Source: Burkholderiaceae bacterium
Lineage (GTDB): Bacteria > Pseudomonadota > Gammaproteobacteria > Burkholderiales > Burkholderiaceae_C
Direction: 5' to 3'
Length of the DNA stretch: 37,137 nucleotides
Assembly (NCBI GenBank): GCA_024710165.1
Contig: JANJVG010000124.1
Span: 1 to 37,137 of the forward strand
Each line of letters begins with the position of its first letter. Position 1 is the stretch's first letter. The position numbers and the translations under genes are program-made. Below are positions 138 through 27,701 of the stretch, one piece after another. The notes beneath the pieces are model-generated. The model made no database searches, was not told the origin of the DNA, and was given only the letters and a program-made list of their open reading frames with translations.

Positions 138-211
138 GGCGCGGTAGCAAAGCGGTTATGCCCCGGATTGCAAATCCGGTTAGTCCGGTTCGACTCCGGA
201 CCGCGCCTCCA
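138..211 (+). tRNA. tRNA-Cys (anticodon GCA)
   Basis: The acceptor stem GGCGCGG/CCGCGCC, the anticodon stem CCGGA/TCCGG with loop TTGCAAA (anticodon GCA), and the T-arm CCGG-TTCGACT-CCGG are all intact, and CCA is encoded. The integrase gene starts 180 bases downstream. The 3' half of this tRNA is therefore the most likely bacterial attachment site of the element, as for many tyrosine integrases. The second att copy would lie outside this window. Confidence 0.95.
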
Positions 212-391
212 GAAATTCTGAATGAAATCAACAAGTTAGCCACCTTCGGGTGGCTTTTTTGTTTCCAGATTTCCGGCTAAATCCGCTTAAAGCTGTGGCT
301 TTGCTACTGGAATCCGTAGCAATGCTACTAGGTACAGGACTGGACAATCCGGGGAAGTCAGATATGCTTGCCGCCCTTCTAAGGAGCAGCA
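181..391. other. Probable attL / host-prophage junction
   Basis: This stretch joins the tRNA-Cys 3' half to the integrase start and codes for nothing recognisable. Around 300-332 the motif GCTACT recurs with GTAGCA in between, which could be integrase arm-type sites or chance. The exact core cannot be fixed because the other junction is missing from the window. A tRNA-Cys 3' core is inferred from position only. Confidence 0.4.
238..260 (+). terminator. Intrinsic terminator after tRNA-Cys
   Basis: The stem AGCCACC/GGTGGCT with a TTCG loop is followed by six T. It ends transcription of the tRNA-Cys unit before the element begins. Confidence 0.92.
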
Positions 392-2611: not shown

Positions 2612-2917
2612 TTATGGCTTTTTTCCCAGCCTTGCTTGGGCTGCGGTTATGCACTTTTTATGCTTTTTGAGACGAGATTCATATTCTTTTATCTTGCTGA
2701 TATGTGCATCTCTTCCATATGCGGCCCCAACTTCAATTTCTAAGTAGCGTTCAGTTAGCGTCAACGCCTCCAGCATCTGCTGAATCAGCTCATCGTCCTG
2801 CTTGCGCATTTCAGCTTCGATGGCTCTGGCAAACCCCATTGCGTGCCGTGGTGCGATGCTTGCGCAGCCCCACGCTTCTCGCATCATTTCCGCAATCTGC
2901 TCAGGTGTCAGTGCCAT
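2612..2917 (-). CDS. Hypothetical protein, paralogue of 3508-3744
   Basis: This 101-residue acidic, helical protein is the last gene of the accessory operon. It shares with the protein at 3508-3744 a start (MAL), a middle FARAIEAE-x-RK-x-DD-x-LI-x-Q segment, an Ala-Leu turn and a C-terminal AA-x-ARLG. The two are diverged copies of one family. Its start follows AAGGAGG and overlaps the end of the gene upstream. Function is unknown; small phage proteins of this shape are usually accessory. Confidence 0.7.
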   Translation of the reverse strand: MALTPEQIAEMMREAWGCASIAPRHAMGFARAIEAEMRKQDDELIQQMLEALTLTERYLEIEVGAAYGRDAHISKIKEYESRLKKHKKCITAAQARLGKKP

Positions 2918-3242
2918 GCTGGCCTCCTTGCTTAATGCCGTGGGCGCGCTCTCCGTCGCGCAGACCCAACCGATACCAGTTGATTAACACTTTGACGCTC
3001 GAGATCAGTTCGTAGCCTTCGTGGAAATGTTTGGCGGCAATCAGATCATCAATCTGCTCATCACTCAGCGGCTCCCCCACAACTGGCTGTGGGGTGCTTC
3101 GGACAAAAGCCATTGCGTCCAAGATGGTTGTGTACGCATCAGGGTTTCGGGACTCGTCAATGAATCCGCTGCCCTCCAAAATCTTCGATAGGCCGTGCAG
3201 CCTCCAGTAGAGGTCTTCGCTGGATGTAGGTGTGTTGCTCAT
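2901..3242 (-). CDS. Hypothetical accessory phage protein
   Basis: This 113-residue protein begins at the ATG at 3242, which follows AAGGAG and overlaps the upstream stop as ATGA. The longer upstream reading has no ribosome site. It has no recognised domain. Its C terminus (GGQHGTDT) is encoded by the ribosome-binding region of the next gene and matches the C terminus (GGQHGTE) of the protein at 3731-3958, because both end on the same duplicated overlap module. Soluble, function unknown. Confidence 0.7.
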   Translation of the reverse strand: MSNTPTSSEDLYWRLHGLSKILEGSGFIDESRNPDAYTTILDAMAFVRSTPQPVVGEPLSDEQIDDLIAAKHFHEGYELISSVKVLINWYRLGLRDGERAHGIKQGGQHGTDT

Positions 3243-3511
3243 GGTTTGCTCCTTGCCTTTAGCATGGCGTCGGCCATGTGATAGCGGTAAGCAGCCTCTC
3301 CTTTGGCGTACCAATCTATCTTTGCCCTGGCGTCAGCGTAGGCTGGAAAAGAGCCGATCAAAGCCTCATACGCACTTACCGCAACGTCTTTTGTGTCGAT
3401 GTGGACTGCGAAATAGTCGCGCATTGATAGCCCGTAGTAGATTTCTGGCGCTGTTGTTGGGCCTTGGCACGTAAATGGGAACGCCGGCCCGCCGTCGTCT
3501 TGTGTGGTCAT
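3239..3511 (-). CDS. GGPAFP-type small phage protein
   Basis: This 90-residue protein has the DDGGPAFPF opening, a GLSMRDYFA segment at about residues 28-36, and a C-terminal YHMADAMLKAR helix. That combination recurs in many short hypothetical proteins of temperate phages and prophages. It is soluble with no catalytic motif visible, and its role is unknown. It overlaps both neighbours by four bases (ATGA type), so it is co-translated with them. Confidence 0.75.
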   Translation of the reverse strand: MTTQDDGGPAFPFTCQGPTTAPEIYYGLSMRDYFAVHIDTKDVAVSAYEALIGSFPAYADARAKIDWYAKGEAAYRYHMADAMLKARSKP

Positions 3512-3958: not shown

Positions 3959-5142
3959 TTGATGCCGTGGAGTCGCAACTTCACGCACATATCCGCAAGC
4001 CGTTCGCCAAGTGCTTTGCACTGCTTGCCATGCGTCACTAGTCCTGCTGCTGTCAACACATCAGACAAAAACTGTTCGAACTCTGCCGACTCCGGCGCCA
4101 CGGCCTGCGCCTGGGTGGGCGATGTGGGCAAGGGCTGCGGTGCGGTGTAGAAAATGCAGGTTTCAAACAAATTTGGCTTGGCCGAAAGCTCTGCGTACCG
4201 CTTCTTTGTACAAGTACAGAAATTATCAAGGCCCTTGCGGCGGAATGCGTACACAGGCTCCCCTCTGGGTGCTGTCTGGCCCCACTTTGCAATCGCAGTA
4301 CGTACAAGTTCCCTGAGCTTCTTTATCATCAGGTCGCGCGAGTCTTTTCGTAAGCCAGATGTCGGGCCGAAATAGACAATCAGTGCATCAATCTCGGCGT
4401 CTGTCGGCGCCAGTTTGGTGTCAGTTGTCATGGCTCTTGCCTCCTGTGCTGCACGGGCGCGAAGGGCAGCCTTGGCTGCGTCGATGCGCTCGCGGATGAT
4501 TTCGATAACCCGAGCGTATGGCATGGAGCCCTCCCGCAGGCGGCCTATGAGGTAAGCCGCGTCGGCATGCAGGCTGTCCAGCGGCACACGCACAGCGTCG
4601 CTCAGCGCATCCCCCTGCGCTGCGGGCGAGGGCTGCGGTGCTGTCTTTACATCATGTGTAAAGGTGGTAAACGCATTCAAAAGCATGCGCTTCATGTAAT
4701 CAAATTCTTCCTGCTCATCCGGCTCATAAGCCAGCCTGAACAGTTGGTTTCCGATCTTGAAATGCATCTGTGGGCCAGACATACCGAACTCGACTCCGTA
4801 CTGGTTCGGCTGGTTCTCTGGGTCTGTCAATGCTTGCGTGAGGTGGTGCGCCTCCTGCCGGGGCGCTGTGTAGAGTGGGATTCCATGCTTACCGTAGGCG
4901 TCATAATCTGTCGTCACTTGGTCCGCCCTCCACGGGTCGAGCCAAGCCACCGGCTCCCCGCTGTGTGCAGGCTGGCCCCAGCGGGCAAGGACTGCGCGGG
5001 CAAATGCCTGCACAGCATTGGAATGTTTGCGCCCCACCCGTGTCTCTGGTGTAGGGTGCGAGTTGTCCGGCAGCAGTCCCGCTTCTCGCGCCACTACAAA
5101 AATCTCGGCGTCTGTCGGCGCCAGTTTGGTGTCAGTTGTCAT
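3955..5142 (-). CDS. Fused pair of accessory phage proteins
   Basis: One 395-residue frame contains two diverged copies of one gene type. Each half opens with MTTDTKLAPTDAEI (residues 1-14 and from about 238) and each carries a GEPV...YTAP motif common in Burkholderiales and enteric phage hypotheticals. The internal ATG at 4431 has its own AGGAGG eight bases upstream, so a 158-residue product (3955-4431) is probably also made. Neighbouring genes join by ATGA overlaps. Here the upstream frame passes the equivalent TGA in another phase, which suggests a small indel removed the first gene's stop and fused the two. Function unknown. Confidence 0.7.
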   Translation of the reverse strand: MTTDTKLAPTDAEIFVVAREAGLLPDNSHPTPETRVGRKHSNAVQAFARAVLARWGQPAHSGEPVAWLDPWRADQVTTDYDAYGKHGIPLYTAPRQEAHHLTQALTDPENQPNQYGVEFGMSGPQMHFKIGNQLFRLAYEPDEQEEFDYMKRMLLNAFTTFTHDVKTAPQPSPAAQGDALSDAVRVPLDSLHADAAYLIGRLREGSMPYARVIEIIRERIDAAKAALRARAAQEARAMTTDTKLAPTDAEIDALIVYFGPTSGLRKDSRDLMIKKLRELVRTAIAKWGQTAPRGEPVYAFRRKGLDNFCTCTKKRYAELSAKPNLFETCIFYTAPQPLPTSPTQAQAVAPESAEFEQFLSDVLTAAGLVTHGKQCKALGERLADMCVKLRLHGIK

Positions 5143-5357
5143 GATTGAATCCTTCCTATCTCGGCAAGCAGCCCTGCTCTTGCATCCCAGCGTTGTTGCT
5201 CTAGAGAATAGCCAATGGCGCGGTCAAGTTTGTGGGCGTCAGCAAACGTGTCGATGCGTAGGCTGACTTCGTTGGGCGTACCTACGAAATACGTCGCCAT
5301 GCCATGCTCGCCGCCTGCGCCATCTTGTTCCCATCGGAATGTGACCTTAGTTGTCAT
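5139..5357 (-). CDS. Hypothetical protein
   Basis: This 72-residue soluble protein is joined to both neighbours by ATGA overlaps (5357/5354 and 5142/5139). The N-terminal half is rich in beta-prone residues (TKVTFRWEQDG, MATYFVG) and the C-terminal half looks helical. There are no Cys clusters and no membrane segment. Not recognised. Its place in the overlapping operon makes real translation likely. Confidence 0.65.
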   Translation of the reverse strand: MTTKVTFRWEQDGAGGEHGMATYFVGTPNEVSLRIDTFADAHKLDRAIGYSLEQQRWDARAGLLAEIGRIQS

Positions 5358-15766: not shown

Positions 15767-17816
15767 TCAGGTCAGTGCGTAGTTGCTTTGACGGATCAGA
15801 TCACCCAGATCATCAGACAGCTTCTCGTACTTGCCCTGCTTGCCGTAGATACCACTGAGGATCATGTCCAGTGTGGTGCTCTCGGCCAGTTCAGCAAAGA
15901 TATTGATGTAGTGTTGACGCAGATGATTCATGTAATTTGCATGGCACTTGAACTCATCCAAATGTTCAGATAGCTTCGCTACTGCTATCCCGGAAAGATT
16001 ACCTATCTTCCAGCCTCATAGTTTCCTATGGGATCGGACCATATCATGCTCTTTCGAGCCGTACTGTTTCCACCCCGCTTGGGGCGTACTCTACTTGGTT
16101 CATCTCACGATGCCTTTCGATGGTCTCTGAACGTTAGTATCCTCTATGTACCCAAGAGTATGTTTTTGAGATTTCAGTTCTTGAACGCCTACATTTAATG
16201 TCTCTTACTGTTCCTCTAGTCACCCCACACCGATCTGCAATAGCAGTATCAGATAGGTCGGTGTCTTGGAGCAGCTTGCAGACTTGATGTATGGTCGTAG
16301 TAGTGAATCGTCCAATCTTTCGATTGTTACTTCCTGCGTTGTTAACGGATTTGGTAGCTACACACAGATTCTTAATAGCGTTGTTATCCCGCTGTTTGTC
16401 TATGTGATCTATCTCATGTCCTGCTGGTGGCAGTGCTCCATGGTATAGATAGAACAGCAAACGATGTTTCATTCGTAGCCGTCTATTGCACCAAAGCCTT
16501 ATATATCCATCTGGGTTTTTGCTACCAACATCTTGATAGATGTGGTTTCCATTTCTACCGCCTTTGGCGTTAATTACCCCAGTTGAATAGTCAACGCTAA
16601 GTAGTTGATGATTCTTGAAATACTCAAAATCAATTTTCTCTTGAGACATAACTTTCCTATAAACAACTCTGCATGAATTGTAATACAGGGCGAGTTATAA
16701 AGATACTCTTCGCTGCTGATTGCCATATCCTTTCGGACTTAGGGTTCCAGCAATTAAATACGTTTAATGTGCACCATGAGGTTAATGCACAGTAACCACT
16801 TCAAATGGCTTGTGAACAAGCATCGAATTGATAATGCCAAGCAGATCTTCCAAGTGTTGATGACTGAGGTTGTGAACGTTCTTGCTGTTGAGATGAGGCA
16901 AGATCACTACATCAGCCATGTGGCTACGGTCGTACAGATCCTTGTAGTAGCTGGTTGCCTTGTCAGGGCCACCCAACTGAGGATTGTTTAGAGCTTGTTC
17001 GATCAGCTCCTTGGCTTGTTGCACCAGCTCTGCGTTGTAGTTGCAGCGGCGATGGATGTTACGTAGTACGTAAGCATCAACGCTGTGCACTACATTGGCT
17101 GCATTGGACAGTCCCTTCTTGGTGCCCTCATTCTCCTTATAGTGGTGAGTGAAGGATGCACCATCAAGCTCTTGCACCTCAATGCGAGTTTCCTTCTCAG
17201 ACATGACTTTCACCTTGGCTTCGTAGCCGTCAGGCAGTTGCCATGCGTGCATCTTGGCGTAGGGTTGCCATGAAGCCAGCAAATCCTGAAGCAGTTGCCA
17301 AGCACCTGGAGCCAGCTTGTATGCAGCAGCATAGAAGGCAGCAATCTCGGGAGTATCCTCACCGAACAACTTCAGAGGTTGTGCCTTGCTGCCATAGCAG
17401 GCAGTCATAAGCGCAGTCTTTGCCTTCTTGCGAGGCACGGAGATTCCTTCACCACCCAGAATCTCGTTCATCAGCTCTGTGCAGGATGTATAGGCATCGG
17501 CTCGCTTGTTGGGATCTACCAAGCCAGTAGCTTCAGCTCCAGCCTTGCAGCCGGTGAGGACTGACATGACCTGAATGCCAGAGCAGGTGGCATCGAAGCC
17601 AACAAGATGGCCTGTAGGAATGCCTGCTTGAGCCTTGCGAATAGCCATGACAGCCTTCACAAACAAGGGTTTCTTGTCTGCTTGATCAGCAAGGCTTTCC
17701 AAGGTATCCATGTTGTCCTTGACCCATTGAATGCGCTGATTGAATAGGAGTTTGTCGTTACCATAATGGTTTGAGGCATCTATTAGTAAATATTCAAAGC
17801 CGGTAAAAGTTTGCAT
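15767..17816 (-). CDS. T7-like RNA polymerase II large subunit (N4 gp16-like), intron-interrupted
   Basis: The spliced product has 407 residues: exon 1 is 17816-16785 (344 codons) and exon 2 is 15958-15767. With the product of 18775-19755 it forms a two-subunit single-polypeptide-type RNA polymerase, which in N4 transcribes middle genes. Motif A is GFDATCSGIQ, with the catalytic Asp. Motif B is RKKAKTALMTACYGSK, with the Lys and YG. Motif C is VH then DEFKCH, split exactly between His and the catalytic Asp by the intron at 15959-16784. Without splicing, exon 1 ends at a TAA right after the His and lacks the second metal-binding Asp. The ATG overlaps the HNH stop (TAATG) and follows AGGAG. Confidence 0.92.
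15959..16784 (-). mobile_element. Group I intron in RNA polymerase motif C
   Basis: All four conserved core strings are present in order on the minus strand. They are P AATTGCTGGAA (16755-16745), Q AATCAGCAGC (16721-16712), R GTTCAGAGACCA (16132-16121) and S around GATATGGTCC (16045-16036). P7 pairs GACCA with TGGTC. The exon end TGTGCAT (16791-16785) pairs with GTGCACA (16774-16768), giving P1 with the required U.G at the splice site. CTCAT (16780-16776) pairs with exon 2 ATGAG (P10). The last intron base is G (15959). The 826-base intron carries an HNH gene between Q and R, that is in the P6 loop. Confidence 0.93.
16134..16649 (-). CDS. Intron-encoded HNH homing endonuclease
   Basis: This 171-residue protein lies entirely inside the group I intron and its stop is two bases before the R element. 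The HNH core is HRLLFYLYHGALPP then EIDHIDKQRDNNAIKNL, which gives His, DH and the N-x-x-NL helix. The C-terminal third (QVCKLLQDTDLSDTAIADRCGVTRGTV) is a helix-turn-helix likely to read the target. It would cut intronless RNA polymerase alleles and drive homing. It differs in type from the two zinc-finger HNH enzymes elsewhere in the window, so the intron arrived independently. Translation start is at 16649 after a modest AGGAAAG site. Confidence 0.9.
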   Translation of the reverse strand: MSQEKIDFEYFKNHQLLSVDYSTGVINAKGGRNGNHIYQDVGSKNPDGYIRLWCNRRLRMKHRLLFYLYHGALPPAGHEIDHIDKQRDNNAIKNLCVATKSVNNAGSNNRKIGRFTTTTIHQVCKLLQDTDLSDTAIADRCGVTRGTVRDIKCRRSRTEISKTYSWVHRGY

Positions 17817-18469
17817 TATGTTTTCTCCTGATTGTCGTTAGGTGAAGTGGAATATCGCCATTTATGCCCATAGGCAGTGGTTGCAGTAATCAATCTAGTA
17901 GTCCCATTGGGATTACGTTTCTTGCTTACACGTTGGTTTATTGCACCTATGATGTTTGACGGAAGACCTTTAAATTCTCTTGCTGCTGCCGAAACAGAAT
18001 GGAATCTTTGAATAAAGTTTCCATCTAGATCTAGCATATCTACTGCTAACGTTTTTTTATTGTTTGCTCCAATGGTTCGATCAGAATAACCTTTTTGGTT
18101 GTTCTCATTCCATGTGACTACTTGCAGGTTATCTAGGCGATAACTAATATAGTCATTAAGACGATCAAATGATGGTTTGAAGTTTGATTTGTAACCTGAC
18201 TGTTCCCATGCTTCAAATAGAAGATGGAATTCAGGATTACTTTTAGACCAATCAAGAAGCTCTTTTTCGGTGTATGCAGGCGGTGCATATCCTCGCTTTT
18301 TGGCTTTTGATTTTTGAGTGGCGTAGCATTCTTTAATCAATCCTTCCTTTGATCGTATAAAGCGTTTCTTACATACTTTACAGTCTGCTCTATAGCCATC
18401 CTTACCTGTTGATTGTTTATCAAAGTATTCAAATGGAAGAGTTTGTTTGCAGCAAGAACATTCTTTCAT
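17816..18469 (-). CDS. Free-standing HNH homing endonuclease between RNAP subunits
   Basis: This 217-residue protein has an N-terminal zinc pair (CSCC, CKVC), a core SFDRLNDYISYRLDNLQVVTWNENNQKGYSDR and a NUMOD-like tail (HSVSAAAREFKGLPSNIIGAI...HKWRY). The architecture and spacing match the enzyme behind the DNA polymerase (7461-8063), so the two are paralogues. It sits between the genes for the two RNAP subunits. I see no group I core in its flanks, and both subunit genes keep their own starts, so it is a free-standing homing gene. Its stop overlaps the large-subunit start. Confidence 0.85.
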   Translation of the reverse strand: MKECSCCKQTLPFEYFDKQSTGKDGYRADCKVCKKRFIRSKEGLIKECYATQKSKAKKRGYAPPAYTEKELLDWSKSNPEFHLLFEAWEQSGYKSNFKPSFDRLNDYISYRLDNLQVVTWNENNQKGYSDRTIGANNKKTLAVDMLDLDGNFIQRFHSVSAAAREFKGLPSNIIGAINQRVSKKRNPNGTTRLITATTAYGHKWRYSTSPNDNQEKT

Positions 18470-18541: not shown

Positions 18542-18778
18542 TTACCTCAATAGGAGTTCAAGAACAATCAGTTCTTTAGGTACATGCTGAGGTAGTACAG
18601 GAGTCCAATCGCATCTGTACCATTCACCATTTCCTGATGAGTCGTACTGATGTACATATCCACCGTTGTAAATCTCTAATCCCCAATTAGTATGGAGATA
18701 CTGAGACAACGATGGGTATCCCTCTTCAAACGTATCTACTAGCGGGTTAGCGTAGTAGAGTCTGGTTTTGGTATTCAA
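18542..18778 (-). CDS. Hypothetical protein after small RNAP subunit, TTG start
   Basis: This 78-residue acidic, Tyr-rich protein begins with TTG overlapping the small-subunit stop (TTGA), with AGAGGG upstream, so it is coupled to the polymerase subunit. The sequence includes NWGLEIYNGGYVHQYDSSGNGEWYRCDW, which looks beta-rich. It is not recognised. Its place between the two subunit genes could mean an accessory role in polymerase assembly, or just that this is a spacer gene as found between N4 early genes. Confidence 0.6.
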   Translation of the reverse strand: MNTKTRLYYANPLVDTFEEGYPSLSQYLHTNWGLEIYNGGYVHQYDSSGNGEWYRCDWTPVLPQHVPKELIVLELLLR

Positions 18779-19755
18779 ACACCCTCTACCAACTCTTCTT
18801 TTGCTAAGTCGATTGAGGCTTTCTTGTAGGGATTACCTTGAGTGTTGATGTGATAGCCTTGGCTGTAGATGCGTCCCCGCTTGTCTACCTTATGAGTGAG
18901 GTGGAACTTGTTACCGGCATTGATCATTTCCATGTACATCTCCGCAGATGTTCCCTTGAACGTTTCCCACATACCTTCTACGTAAGCTACGTAATGGGCA
19001 TACGAAGGGAACTGCTTGTGCTTCTTCTTGATAGCAACCCATTCGTCGAAGTCTTCTTCAGACTTCAACTCAAATGACTTGTCTTCTTCAAGTGCCAGCA
19101 GGAAATCCACATCCAGCTTCAGCTTGACGCTGTTAGCTATGTTCAGTACATCCAAGCAGATGTTTCCATCGTGGTGGTTTCCCTTTCCAAGGATCAGTGA
19201 GTCCTTGTGAGTCAGATAGCCACTGTCGTAGTTGTTTTCCAAATACAGAGGCCCACACACCATCGGTGGTAGGTAGTCGCTGTGCTCGATGAACCGCAAC
19301 AGACGGTCTGGCAGTTCAATGCGGCTGACCACCATGAGAGAAGCCATACGGCTCTCTTTGGTAATGTCAAAGGCATCTGTGAGGCACAGCACAGACAGCA
19401 TTTCTGCCACTGTCTGAATAGCATCAGAACGATCATCAAAGCCAAGTCGCCCAGAAAGCTGTACATTGACTGATGCCATGAGCTGTGGCTTTTGCATATA
19501 GGCAATGCCTACAAACAGGTCTGTCACGAGTTGTGGCAGATCCGTTGCATAAGCCTTGAGCTGCTTGATACGTGCTTCCTTTTCAGGACGGTACTGTCCC
19601 TCCATCCAATCCTTGATGAGAGCAACACCCTTATCAACCTTGGATTGGTTGACAGGGTTTTCAATAATGGCTTTACGAATGTAGCCATCAATGTGCTTGC
19701 GGCTATATTTCCGTTCAATGGCTTCCTGAACCATGATTTGGGCATGCGTATCCAT
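18775..19755 (-). CDS. T7-like RNA polymerase II small subunit (N4 gp15-like)
   Basis: This 326-residue protein is the N-terminal half of a T7-like polymerase. It ends with DKRGRIYSQGYHINTQGNPY then KKASIDLAKEELVEG. This contains the DxxGR motif and the region before motif A, and the large subunit then resumes at GFEYLLID. The break matches the natural gp15/gp16 division of N4 RNAP II, so it is not a frameshift and no splicing is required. The start follows AAGGACTAATC. Length is somewhat above what I recall for N4 gp15. Together with the large subunit and, in N4, an accessory activator, it transcribes middle promoters. Confidence 0.9.
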   Translation of the reverse strand: MDTHAQIMVQEAIERKYSRKHIDGYIRKAIIENPVNQSKVDKGVALIKDWMEGQYRPEKEARIKQLKAYATDLPQLVTDLFVGIAYMQKPQLMASVNVQLSGRLGFDDRSDAIQTVAEMLSVLCLTDAFDITKESRMASLMVVSRIELPDRLLRFIEHSDYLPPMVCGPLYLENNYDSGYLTHKDSLILGKGNHHDGNICLDVLNIANSVKLKLDVDFLLALEEDKSFELKSEEDFDEWVAIKKKHKQFPSYAHYVAYVEGMWETFKGTSAEMYMEMINAGNKFHLTHKVDKRGRIYSQGYHINTQGNPYKKASIDLAKEELVEGV

Positions 19756-21256: not shown

Positions 21257-21457
21257 CTACAGATCTATGGAAATGAAATGCCTGTCACTACGAGAGAAAA
21301 CCGTAGTGCTCTGGTCTTCAAGCAGACTCGCGCAGCGAGCTGCAATAGCTTCAGATTCAGTTTCATAAATGACCTTGGAAGGTGAAGCAAAGACCAAAGC
21401 AGACACTAAATCACTGATCTTTTCCTCAATAGAGGAAAGAACTTTTAAAGCTTGCAT
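21257..21457 (-). CDS. Small hypothetical early protein
   Basis: This 66-residue protein starts after TTAGGAGCACAAC with a good AGGAG site. The first half is helical (ALKVLSSIEEKISDLVSALVF) and the rest mixed, with no transmembrane segment of full length. Not recognised. It is flanked on both sides by the two related hairpins at 21241 and 21501, so it may form a small cassette. Confidence 0.6.
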   Translation of the reverse strand: MQALKVLSSIEEKISDLVSALVFASPSKVIYETESEAIAARCASLLEDQSTTVFSRSDRHFISIDL

Positions 21458-25079: not shown

Positions 25080-27701
25080 ATGGCTGCACGGTTCCATGCT
25101 GACGGAATGCCGTGGAAGGTTGAGGATTACCTCAACTCCACGGAATACGGGGTCGATCCCAACTATGTTCCTAGCGAATTCGCACTGGAGTTTGTCACCT
25201 TTGTGAAGTTGGTTAACGGTTCTCAGGGGGAAGAAAACAAGACCCCTCTTGTGCACTACAAGATGTTGGATACCCTCACAGAAGGCGGTAATCGTGTGAT
25301 TAATCTGTGCCACCGGGGTATCGCAAAGACCACCCTGATGGCTGAGTACTTCTTCCTGTACCTGGCTACTTATGGTGAGATTCCTGAGTTTGGTCGGGTA
25401 GATCTTGCGCTTTATGTCTCTGACTCTATCGAGAACGGGGTAAAGAACATGCGCAAGAACTTGGAGTTCCGGTGGGATAACTCAGACTTCCTTAAACAGT
25501 ACGTTCCTGAAATTCATTTCACAGATATACGGTGGGAGTTCAAGAATGCAGATGGCAAACTCTTCATTGTGAAAGGCTACGGAGCAAAGGCCCTTGCCTT
25601 GGATACAGAATTGCACACCCTGAGCGGGCGCACCACGATTGGCGAGTGCCAGGTTGGTGACCGGATTTTCGGGGCGGATGGGCAGCTGACCACGATCACG
25701 GCCAAGAGTGCGGTATTCAACAAGCCCATGTACCGCTTGCAGTTGGCGGATGGTCGTTCCCTGAAAGTCAGTGAGGACCACCTGAATCCGGTAGTGATCA
25801 ACACTAACCCCAACAACACGGCGCGCTGGGAAGAAAAAGTACTCACCACCCTGGAGCTGTTGCAACAGCCCCTGACACACACCAAAAAAGGAAACCTGGG
25901 GCACCGCGGTACATCCACCAAGAGCCTGGTGGGTGTGCGCAGCATCCAACCCCTGGAGTACCCAGAAGCTGTCCTGGCTGTGGATCCCTACACCTTGGGG
26001 GTTGTGATTGGTGATGGCCGCATCCGCAAGGAATGTGGTTCTGTGGAATTGACCGTGCACGCCGACGAGCTGACCCACTACCACACAACTATCCCCTACG
26101 AGTTCGGCAAGATGCGGACGGACCCCCGCTCCAATGCTGTTACGCAATCCATTCGTGGTCTTGGGCCACGGCTCAAAGCCATGGAAATCAACGTGCGCGG
26201 GGAACAGAAGTTCATCCCGTTCGAGTATTTCTTGGGTTCGATACCCCAACGCCTGGCCCTGTTACGCGGCTTGATGGACACCGATGGCACCGTGTCTGAA
26301 ACAGGCCGAATGAGCTTCACAAGCTCATCACATCAACTCGTGGATGACCTGGGCTGCTTGGTGCGATCCCTCGGGGGCACAGCCAGCAGCATCGCCAAGC
26401 ATAAACACGCAGAGGCGTATCGGGTGGAGATTTGGATGCAGATGAACCCGTTCCTACTGGCCCGTAAAGCGGCACGGTTTGTTCCCAAGGACCGGCATGT
26501 CGCCGTGGTGTCTGTCGAAAGGATTGCTGACGAGCCTAGCCAGTGCATTGCTGTGGACAATGAAGAGCGGCAGTTCGTCGCTGACTGCTATGTTCGTACA
26601 CACAACACAGGTGTTCGTGGCGCCAAGGAAATGGGTAAGCGTCCTGGCGTTGCAGTGCTGGATGACCTGATCAGTGATGAGGATGCCCGCTCAGATACTG
26701 TGATCAAGGCAGTAGAAGACACTGTTTATAAGGCGGTGAACTACGCCTTGCATCCCACCAGAAATCTGATCATATGGTCGGGCACTCCTTTTAATGCCCG
26801 AGATCCTTTGTACAAGGCAGTGGAGTCTGGTGCATGGGGGGTGAACGTATTCCCTGTGTGTGAGCAGTTCCCTTGTGAAGAACACGAGTTTCGTGGTTCT
26901 TGGCCAGATCGCTTTACCTACAAGTATGTGAAGGATCAGTACGACAAGGCGGTACTGCTTGGCAAGGTGGATACCTTCAACCAAGAGCTGATGCTACGAA
27001 TCATGTCAGATGAAGATCGAATGATTCTGGATTCAGATATTGCTTGGTACAAGATTGATGCGGTTATACGTAACAAGAACAGATTCAACTTTTACATAAC
27101 CACTGACTTTGCAACCAGCATTAAACAGAGTGCTGACTACTCGGTCATTAGTGTTTGGGCCTATAACAACGCCGGGGACTGGCTGTGGGTGGATGGGGTT
27201 TGCAAGCGCCAACTGATGGACGCCAATGTGAATGACCTGTTCCGCCTGGCCCAGATGTACCGGCCTCAGCAGGTTGGTATTGAAGTGACTGGTCAGCAGG
27301 GCGGTTTCATTCAATGGATTCAGAATGAGATGTTGGAACGAAACATCTACTTTCCATTGGCCAGTGAAGGAAATGATTCACGCCCAGGCATTCGTCCCAA
27401 TACCAACAAGATGGTGCGATTCAACACCATGGTTCCTTTCTTCAAAGCCAGAAAGATCTTCTTTCCTGTAGAGAAGAAAGGTGAGGCTCCGATGAAGGAA
27501 GCCATCAATGAATTGAGTCTGGCTTCTGCTGGAGGGTTTAAGTCAAAGCATGATGACTTTATTGACACCATTTCCATGCTCAGTTCCTTGACTCCATGGA
27601 AGCCATCAGAAGAAGCTGTAGTTACTCCCGGTGACTCTGGTATGTGGGAGCTTGATGTTCATGAAGATTTCTCTGATCGTAAAAGCTCGTATATTGTTTG
27701 A
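25080..27701 (+). CDS. Terminase large subunit with intein (N4 gp68-like)
   Basis: The primary product has 873 residues; removing the intein (residues 171-509) leaves about 534. The N-terminal ATPase has a variant Walker A, NLCHRGIAKTTLM (about residue 80). The Walker B region is VAVLDDLISDED after the intein. The C-terminal nuclease has a first acidic motif FYITTDFATSIKQSADYS and a late SKHDDFIDTIS motif. The intein splits the conserved GYGAK / TGVRGAKEMG loop between ATPase motifs, so packaging needs protein splicing. The ATG at 25080 directly follows a purine stretch; MPWKVEDYL at 25107 is an alternative start. Confidence 0.93.
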   Translation: MAARFHADGMPWKVEDYLNSTEYGVDPNYVPSEFALEFVTFVKLVNGSQGEENKTPLVHYKMLDTLTEGGNRVINLCHRGIAKTTLMAEYFFLYLATYGEIPEFGRVDLALYVSDSIENGVKNMRKNLEFRWDNSDFLKQYVPEIHFTDIRWEFKNADGKLFIVKGYGAKALALDTELHTLSGRTTIGECQVGDRIFGADGQLTTITAKSAVFNKPMYRLQLADGRSLKVSEDHLNPVVINTNPNNTARWEEKVLTTLELLQQPLTHTKKGNLGHRGTSTKSLVGVRSIQPLEYPEAVLAVDPYTLGVVIGDGRIRKECGSVELTVHADELTHYHTTIPYEFGKMRTDPRSNAVTQSIRGLGPRLKAMEINVRGEQKFIPFEYFLGSIPQRLALLRGLMDTDGTVSETGRMSFTSSSHQLVDDLGCLVRSLGGTASSIAKHKHAEAYRVEIWMQMNPFLLARKAARFVPKDRHVAVVSVERIADEPSQCIAVDNEERQFVADCYVRTHNTGVRGAKEMGKRPGVAVLDDLISDEDARSDTVIKAVEDTVYKAVNYALHPTRNLIIWSGTPFNARDPLYKAVESGAWGVNVFPVCEQFPCEEHEFRGSWPDRFTYKYVKDQYDKAVLLGKVDTFNQELMLRIMSDEDRMILDSDIAWYKIDAVIRNKNRFNFYITTDFATSIKQSADYSVISVWAYNNAGDWLWVDGVCKRQLMDANVNDLFRLAQMYRPQQVGIEVTGQQGGFIQWIQNEMLERNIYFPLASEGNDSRPGIRPNTNKMVRFNTMVPFFKARKIFFPVEKKGEAPMKEAINELSLASAGGFKSKHDDFIDTISMLSSLTPWKPSEEAVVTPGDSGMWELDVHEDFSDRKSSYIV
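25590..26606 (+). mobile_element. LAGLIDADG intein in TerL, Ala at position 1
   Basis: The 339-residue intein starts ALALDTELHT (block A) with Ala rather than Cys or Ser and ends YVRTHN before extein Thr. Block B is SEDH in the usual TxxH position. The homing endonuclease has motifs LGVVIGDGRI and LLRGLMDTDGT. Block F reads QCIAVDNEERQFVADC, with a Cys at the place used as nucleophile by class 3 inteins, and block G supplies Thr-His-Asn. The Trp expected two residues after the block B His in class 3 is Asn here. Base composition is clearly GC-richer than the exteins. Confidence 0.95.

Follow-up and report, generated by a model that had tools for sequence, protein, structure and literature searches.

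How can a phage RNA polymerase gene still yield an enzyme when its reading frame stops directly after the histidine of catalytic motif C, with the catalytic aspartate encoded beyond that stop? This question is raised by a minus-strand gene in a 37,137-nucleotide stretch of DNA from a Burkholderiaceae bacterium (hereafter the window), which comprises bases 1-37137 of a contig of 126,998 bp (C129). Judged by its sequence, the gene is RNAP2, the homologue of N4 gp16, arranged in two exons around an intron of 826 nt. We propose, with a probability of roughly 92%, that an N4-like prophage here carries in its gp16 gene (RNAP2) a mobile IA-like group I intron, with a predicted HNH homing endonuclease in P6, between the motif C His codon and the catalytic Asp codon. 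The kind of element is already known; its site is exactly defined and functionally striking.

Other N4-like phage genes in the window encode RNAP1 (18775-19755, phrog_2166), DNA polymerase, ATPase, helicase, terminase and portal. An integrase gene (392-1570, PF00589) adjoins a tRNA-Cys and a 50-bp repeat, which suggests an integrated N4-like prophage of some 76.3 kb, with its left portion in the window. The repeat is direct and exact, begins within the tRNA-Cys and links window positions 166-215 with positions 76431-76480 of the contig. Integrase-bearing N4-like proviruses have already been published (PMC10654107). An N4-like RNAP2 was also seen within a 914-kb bacterial contig of Xenophilus sp. 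Marseille-Q4582 (L306), possibly another N4-like provirus.

RNAP2 exon 1 (16785..17816, minus strand, as are all gene and intron parts below) comprises 344 codons, the last of which is the motif C His codon CAT, and matches phrog_2051 (E 2.5e-129) and PF00940 (E 4.4e-15). Exon 2 (15767..15958) begins with GAT, the codon of the catalytic Asp, and ends with a stop codon at 15769-15767. The two exons divide the phrog_2051 profile between them, with positions 1-338 falling to exon 1 and 339-399 of 401 to exon 2 (E 2e-19). To the N4 RNAP2 structure 6dt7_B, the translation starting at the first codon after the intron (P0002) aligns from residue 342, an Asp; exon 2 alone reaches E 0.00025. A profile built from ten relatives (A1) aligns with 6dt7_B at E 1.7e-149, including motifs A, B and C, which establishes homology to gp16. 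Profile A1 also places its HD onto the HD of T7 RNA polymerase, which we take to be His811 and Asp812, within a collinear stretch that scores weakly by itself (-0.7 bits). Thus, the split between His and catalytic Asp claimed by the first-pass annotation is borne out by both alignments, and its outer boundaries, 15767 and 17816, are exact. Its statement that the unspliced frame ends right after the His also holds, since exon 1, when continued into the intron (15959..16784), runs into an in-frame TAA formed by the first three intron bases (16782..16784), directly 3' of CAT.

The anatomy of the intron is that of a group I ribozyme. P1 pairs the end of exon 1, UGUGCAU (16785..16791), with an internal guide strand GUGCACA (16768..16774), in which G 16774 pairs with the splice-site U. 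The neighbouring guide strand CUCAU (16776..16780) forms P10 with AUGAG of exon 2 (15953..15957). P3 consists of CGUAUU (16757..16762) and AGUACG (16060..16065). The P and Q elements (P4/P5 and the start of P6) were placed by the Rfam alignment in a conserved block at 16709..16755, the ends being approximate. The loop of P6 holds an ORF of 171 aa for a putative HNH_3 homing endonuclease (16134..16649); it matches PF13392 at E 9.5e-15, with 54.4 bits against a cut-off of 24.8, and thus contains an HNH domain. Its C-terminus carries a possible helix-turn-helix (PF13384, 20.3 bits, under the cut-off of that family). The ORF is followed by the R element GUUCAGAGACCA (16121..16132), of which 16125-16122 form the 5' strand of P7, and by the S element GAUAUGGUCC (16036..16045), of which 16040-16037 form the 3' strand, the pairing being GACC/GGUC. 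Between them lie P3' and the P8 hairpin GCUC GAAA GAGC (16048..16059), and behind S follows the P9 hairpin CAUAG GAAA CUAUG (16017..16030). The terminal G of the intron (15959) is the same in the three relatives with an intron at the same site. Subgroup IA introns are defined by the extra stems P7.1/P7.2 between P7 and P3'. Here R and P3' are 55 nt apart, and the intervening insertion (16066..16120) occupies the place where P7.1/P7.2 would lie. A 7-bp P1 with U.G, a 5-bp P10, R, S and the terminal G all stand where they had been placed before.

Four introns interrupt RNAP2 at the same base: that of the window, L083 (824 nt) and L280, both from IMG/VR, and L012, which is Vibrio phage D445 (OZ196552.1). 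The MAFFT alignment of these introns (A5) misplaces P3'/P8 of D445 and L280; helices were hence listed by hand and checked by script, and since their strands were picked by eye, the counts lean towards pairing. P1 shows 7/7 standard pairs in 4/4 members, with both-sided changes at three positions, and P3 shows 6/6 in 4/4, likewise with both-sided changes. P7 and P8 are fully paired in all four members, the strand length of P8 varying among them. P10 comprises 5/5 pairs in the window and in L083, 4/4 in L280 and 4/5 in D445. P6 and P9 are fully paired in all but D445, which has mismatches at 1/2 positions of P6 and 2/6 of P9. Both-sided changes were found in P1, P3, P6, P7 and P9, the covariation counts being small, as they come from four sequences, all related. 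Exon 1 ends with GTGCAT in the window as well as in the intronless relative L002, and with ATCCAT in L083, L280 and D445. Because the exon end of the window is that of L002, it is the guide that changed to fit the resident exon; a guide that follows its exon is what selection for splicing would bring about.

D445 shares with the window the insertion base, the core and compensating changes in P1 and P3, and its HNH protein is 49% identical, whereas the exons of the two are merely 51 and 58% alike in DNA. In the D445 stretch examined, the annotation lists an HNH endonuclease and an RNA polymerase that ends where the intron stop lies; an intron is not among its features. Among the 40 matches listed of 160 for the HNH protein, 27 are from Vibrio phages, with 48.0% identity at the same coordinates; one of the 27 was read. 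Window and L083 are 84 and 90% identical in the intron core as compared to 64 and 57% in the exons and 65% in the ORF. Higher identity of intron than of exons was considered as proof of recent transfer and dropped, since ribozyme constraint may suffice. The HNH ORF of the L083 intron (approximately 4687-5202) contains an in-frame stop near its start; relatives without that stop exist.

By chance, a P1 of 7 bp ending in U.G arises within the first 40 intron bases in 2.0% of 20,000 single-base shuffles for the window and in 0.3-0.65% for the three same-site relatives, which are akin and so do not count as independent. A pattern spanning R to S, composed after the sequence had been seen, matches once in the 37-kb window and in 0/100 shuffles. 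With the Rfam model RF00028 the intron scores 22.5 bits (E 0.0035 in 1.3 kb, E 0.1 in the whole window), below the cut-off of 50 bits, which is a database threshold and no property of the family. This score was dropped both as support and as refutation, as the Rfam alignment misplaces R, P7 and P3'; misplacement and low score are due to the endonuclease ORF sitting in P6 with R after it. D445 (30.6 bits) and Achromobacter phage JWAlpha (22 bits) likewise fall below the cut-off, and the introns of phages ZC08 (88.9) and YH6 (82.7) pass it. As an independent test of the core, a covariance model of the R-to-P9 part (R1) was built from 12 introns of other RNAP2 genes, none of them at the exact window site and four elsewhere in motif C. 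R1 finds the 3' core of the window intron at 16134-16005 (45.4 bits, E 1.1e-8), and all four same-site introns at E 2.6e-17 to 9.3e-8. Its sole other match in the window at E up to 10 is 21380-21447 (7.8 bits, E 3.8), and three intronless relatives gave no match to R1. Hence a covariance model does recover the core for its 3' half, so that the refuting outcome named by the first-pass annotation, a covariance model unable to fold the core, did not occur there; the 5' half is placed by alignment only. Taken together, helices, exon ends of relatives and R1 strongly support a group I intron with precisely the splice sites that the first-pass annotation had predicted.

It might be argued that an HNH insertion has simply split RNAP2, the two parts being translated separately and assembling into an enzyme without splicing, which would extend the existing split between gp15 and gp16. 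N4 RNAPII already consists of two parts, and insertion of an endonuclease has been proposed as the cause (PMC5418858, Amgarten et al.); moreover, an in-frame TTG is the codon directly before exon 2 in 4/4 members. The break, however, falls between two catalytic residues and would leave a C-terminal piece of 63 residues, a ribozyme core is present, and P1 and P3 covary. Furthermore, by our reading, the three neighbouring motif C introns with readable 3' junctions, 4 and 7 nt downstream (ZC08, L098, L104), terminate in an ATG that is not in the frame of their exons. We consider separate translation very improbable, and a spliced group I intron is the reading that we retain.

It is equally improbable that splicing has been lost, leaving a nonfunctional RNAP2 in a decaying prophage. 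The element does lie in an apparently integrated prophage, and intron endonucleases decay, as exemplified by the L083 ORF. Both exons are open, however, with the catalytic residues in place, and the guide fits the exon exactly. For exon 2, dN is far below dS both between window and L002 (dN 0.136, dS 1.14, dN/dS about 0.12, the dS of window pairs being near saturation) and between L280 and L249 (dN 0.062, dS 0.66, dN/dS about 0.09), from which we conclude that purifying selection has continued to act on exon 2 since the gene was interrupted. The intron is very probably functional. Its RNA would excise itself by two guanosine-initiated transesterifications that join CAT to GAT and restore the RNAP2 message, and ribosomes translating exon 1 would halt at the TAA at the intron start and so be kept out of the folded core.

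In all seven relatives that span the whole of exon 1 (L002-L008, 60-70% protein identity), residue 344 leads straight into exon 2. A wider count of motif C covered 235 locus ids, several sharing contigs, from five source lists and the window itself; two of the lists comprise the best 80 of 197 and the best 80 of 132 matches. For 222/235 ids a tblastn match runs through motif C, giving 154 distinct contexts of 126 nt, and among these listed matches the His-Asp codons are intact in 152/154 contexts (219 loci). The other two contexts are the occupied contig of L083/L281 and L300, which is out of register. The 13 ids without read-through comprise the window itself (L001), four that carry introns in motif C (L098, L104, L208 and L280) and eight whose match is partial or cut off. 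The intron-bearing L280 and the intronless L249 are still 92.6% identical in exon 1 and 86.5% in exon 2 DNA. Occupied as well as empty gp16 sites were thus obtained from the survey that had been suggested, and an endonuclease ORF inside the intron occurs together with empty alleles at the same site, the combination that marks a mobile intron. Given the HNH_3 ORF inside P6 and the absence of the intron from seven close relatives, a homing intron is the most likely interpretation of the sequence. The HNH protein would cut or nick intronless RNAP2 near motif C, and recombinational repair would spread the intron. Insertion at catalytic codons would favour its persistence, since only exact loss restores the enzyme. 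The HNH query yielded 13 IMG/VR loci at 32-38% identity, 0/13 with a match to the RNAP2 panel. A DNA pattern for P4-P5 yielded 55 loci, of which L134 (the contig of L083) holds RNAP2, L125 has a weak polymerase-like match and the other 53/55 have none.

A further suggestion, compatible with a mobile intron, is that the intron has been retained as a regulatory switch, with splicing linking middle transcription to the translation or growth state of the host. The stop codon at the 5' junction would fit such a switch, yet most group I introns have a stop at this junction, where it shields the intron and is the usual arrangement (PMC3073962). The 152/154 uninterrupted motif C contexts among the matches listed and the L280/L249 pair, about 90% alike and differing in the intron, also speak against it, and we regard such a role as unlikely. 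The earlier statement that splicing efficiency gates the middle-gene polymerase would follow only trivially, from the fact that an unspliced RNA is without the catalytic Asp.

Phage introns had been described in the same annotation as better known from other genes than from an N4-type RNA polymerase. This rarity was overstated: interrupted RNAP2 genes are published for ZC08 and JWAlpha, and introns were found at several sites of the gene. In the following list, insertion sites (marked by a slash) are junctions read by us, unless given as tblastn breakpoints. In motif C, CAT/GA is the site of the window, L083, L280 and D445; 4 nt downstream, HD T/GT is occupied in ZC08 and in L208 (3' end absent); and 7 nt downstream, HDx T/TT is occupied in L098 and in L104, whose intron of about 296 nt is without a long ORF. 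Three insertion points thus lie inside 8 nt of motif C. In motif A, SG/IQ is interrupted in L092 and L291, and in YH6 by tblastn breakpoint only. Around motif B, tblastn breakpoints that are not base-exact were found in JWAlpha (L018), Vibrio phage 1.188.B (L020), L213, L299, L300, L301 and L303; the segment A/N..THS.D is interrupted in L112 and L289. Rfam recognises a group I core above its cut-off in ZC08 and YH6. R1 recognises one in JWAlpha (62.8 bits), 1.188.B, L299 and L300, none of which belonged to its training set; the remaining introns match R1 by construction, as members of that set. Judged by eye, the endonucleases differ between sites: those in motif C look like HNH or endonuclease VII enzymes, those of L092 and L112 like GIY-YIG enzymes. 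No R1 match was obtained, even at E 10, for L313/L314, whose RNAP2 is broken upstream of motif B; having no group I core by R1, this interruption was not counted as an intron. In L313, a Caldisericia MAG contig, it measures about 730 nt (2754-3482). L300 contains a further group I core upstream of RNAP2 (1015-1160, R1 100.6 bits). We give little credence to the combined proposal that the catalytic motifs of RNAP2 (A, B, C and A/N..THS.D) are a recurrent landing ground, with separate introns at three points of motif C, and that splicing at the Asp codon is a checkpoint tying middle transcription and prophage development to host translation.

Pseudomonas phage ZC08 resembles the window in having an Rfam-recognised group I intron in motif C of RNAP2 and an HNH-type ORF; its site lies 4 nt downstream, and its ORF follows P9, whereas that of the window lies in P6. 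The case is described as an endonuclease insertion in RNAP2 and such insertion as a proposed origin of the RNAP1/RNAP2 split, splice sites being absent from section 10 of that paper (PMC5418858). A second group I core of ZC08 (L021, 11847-11970, R1 39.9 bits) overlaps the end of an I-HmuI-annotated gene and falls in the region for which the same paper describes an insertion into a gene with an ATPase domain. In JWAlpha and JWDelta, RNAP2 is divided by a gene, with its function in doubt (PMC3915230). JWAlpha resembles the window in its two-part RNAP2 around an inserted gene with an R1 core and differs in being interrupted at motif B instead of motif C. A gp16 split into two genes has been reported for two species (PMC4496689). 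The T4 td intron with I-TevI likewise houses its endonuclease ORF in the loop of P6 and has a junction stop, but combines a GIY-YIG enzyme with thymidylate synthase, as compared to HNH and RNA polymerase here (PMC3073962, PMC2988022). The N4-like Vibrio phage pVa5 has a group I intron with an HNH ORF as well, in its case in the thymidylate synthase (td) gene and with a published Rfam E of 1E-18 (PMC5746245). Phage homing endonucleases are known to target active-site codons (PMC2988022). The main text of a review on bacterial group I introns does not contain the term 'RNA polymerase' (PMC3984707), and our search of open-licence PMC papers turned up none that defines a group I intron in RNAP2 of the N4 type.

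The present analysis yields exact predicted splice sites for an intron that interrupts a phage RNA polymerase gene. This suggests an answer to the question posed in PMC3915230: an interrupted N4-like RNAP2 probably still makes enzyme, by splicing. Annotations with two RNAP2 pieces, or with a shortened polymerase next to an HNH gene, may likewise be describing introns. Interest attaches to the clustering of intron sites within a single polymerase gene and to the temperate nature of the host phage, and the cluster in motif C offers a natural test of the convergence of homing introns on catalytic codons.

The window contains further elements of related type. A second homing-endonuclease-type ORF (17816-18469; phrog_1035, endonuclease VII) lies between RNAP1 and RNAP2 and overlaps the RNAP2 start by one base; phage G7C has an HNH gene at the same RNAP1/RNAP2 position. 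The product of this ORF was considered as a candidate mover of the RNAP2 intron. The large terminase ORF (25080-27701, 873 aa) includes a LAGLIDADG stretch (PF14528), which is probably an intein, as known from Vibrio phages JA1 and VchO139-I (PMC3670811).
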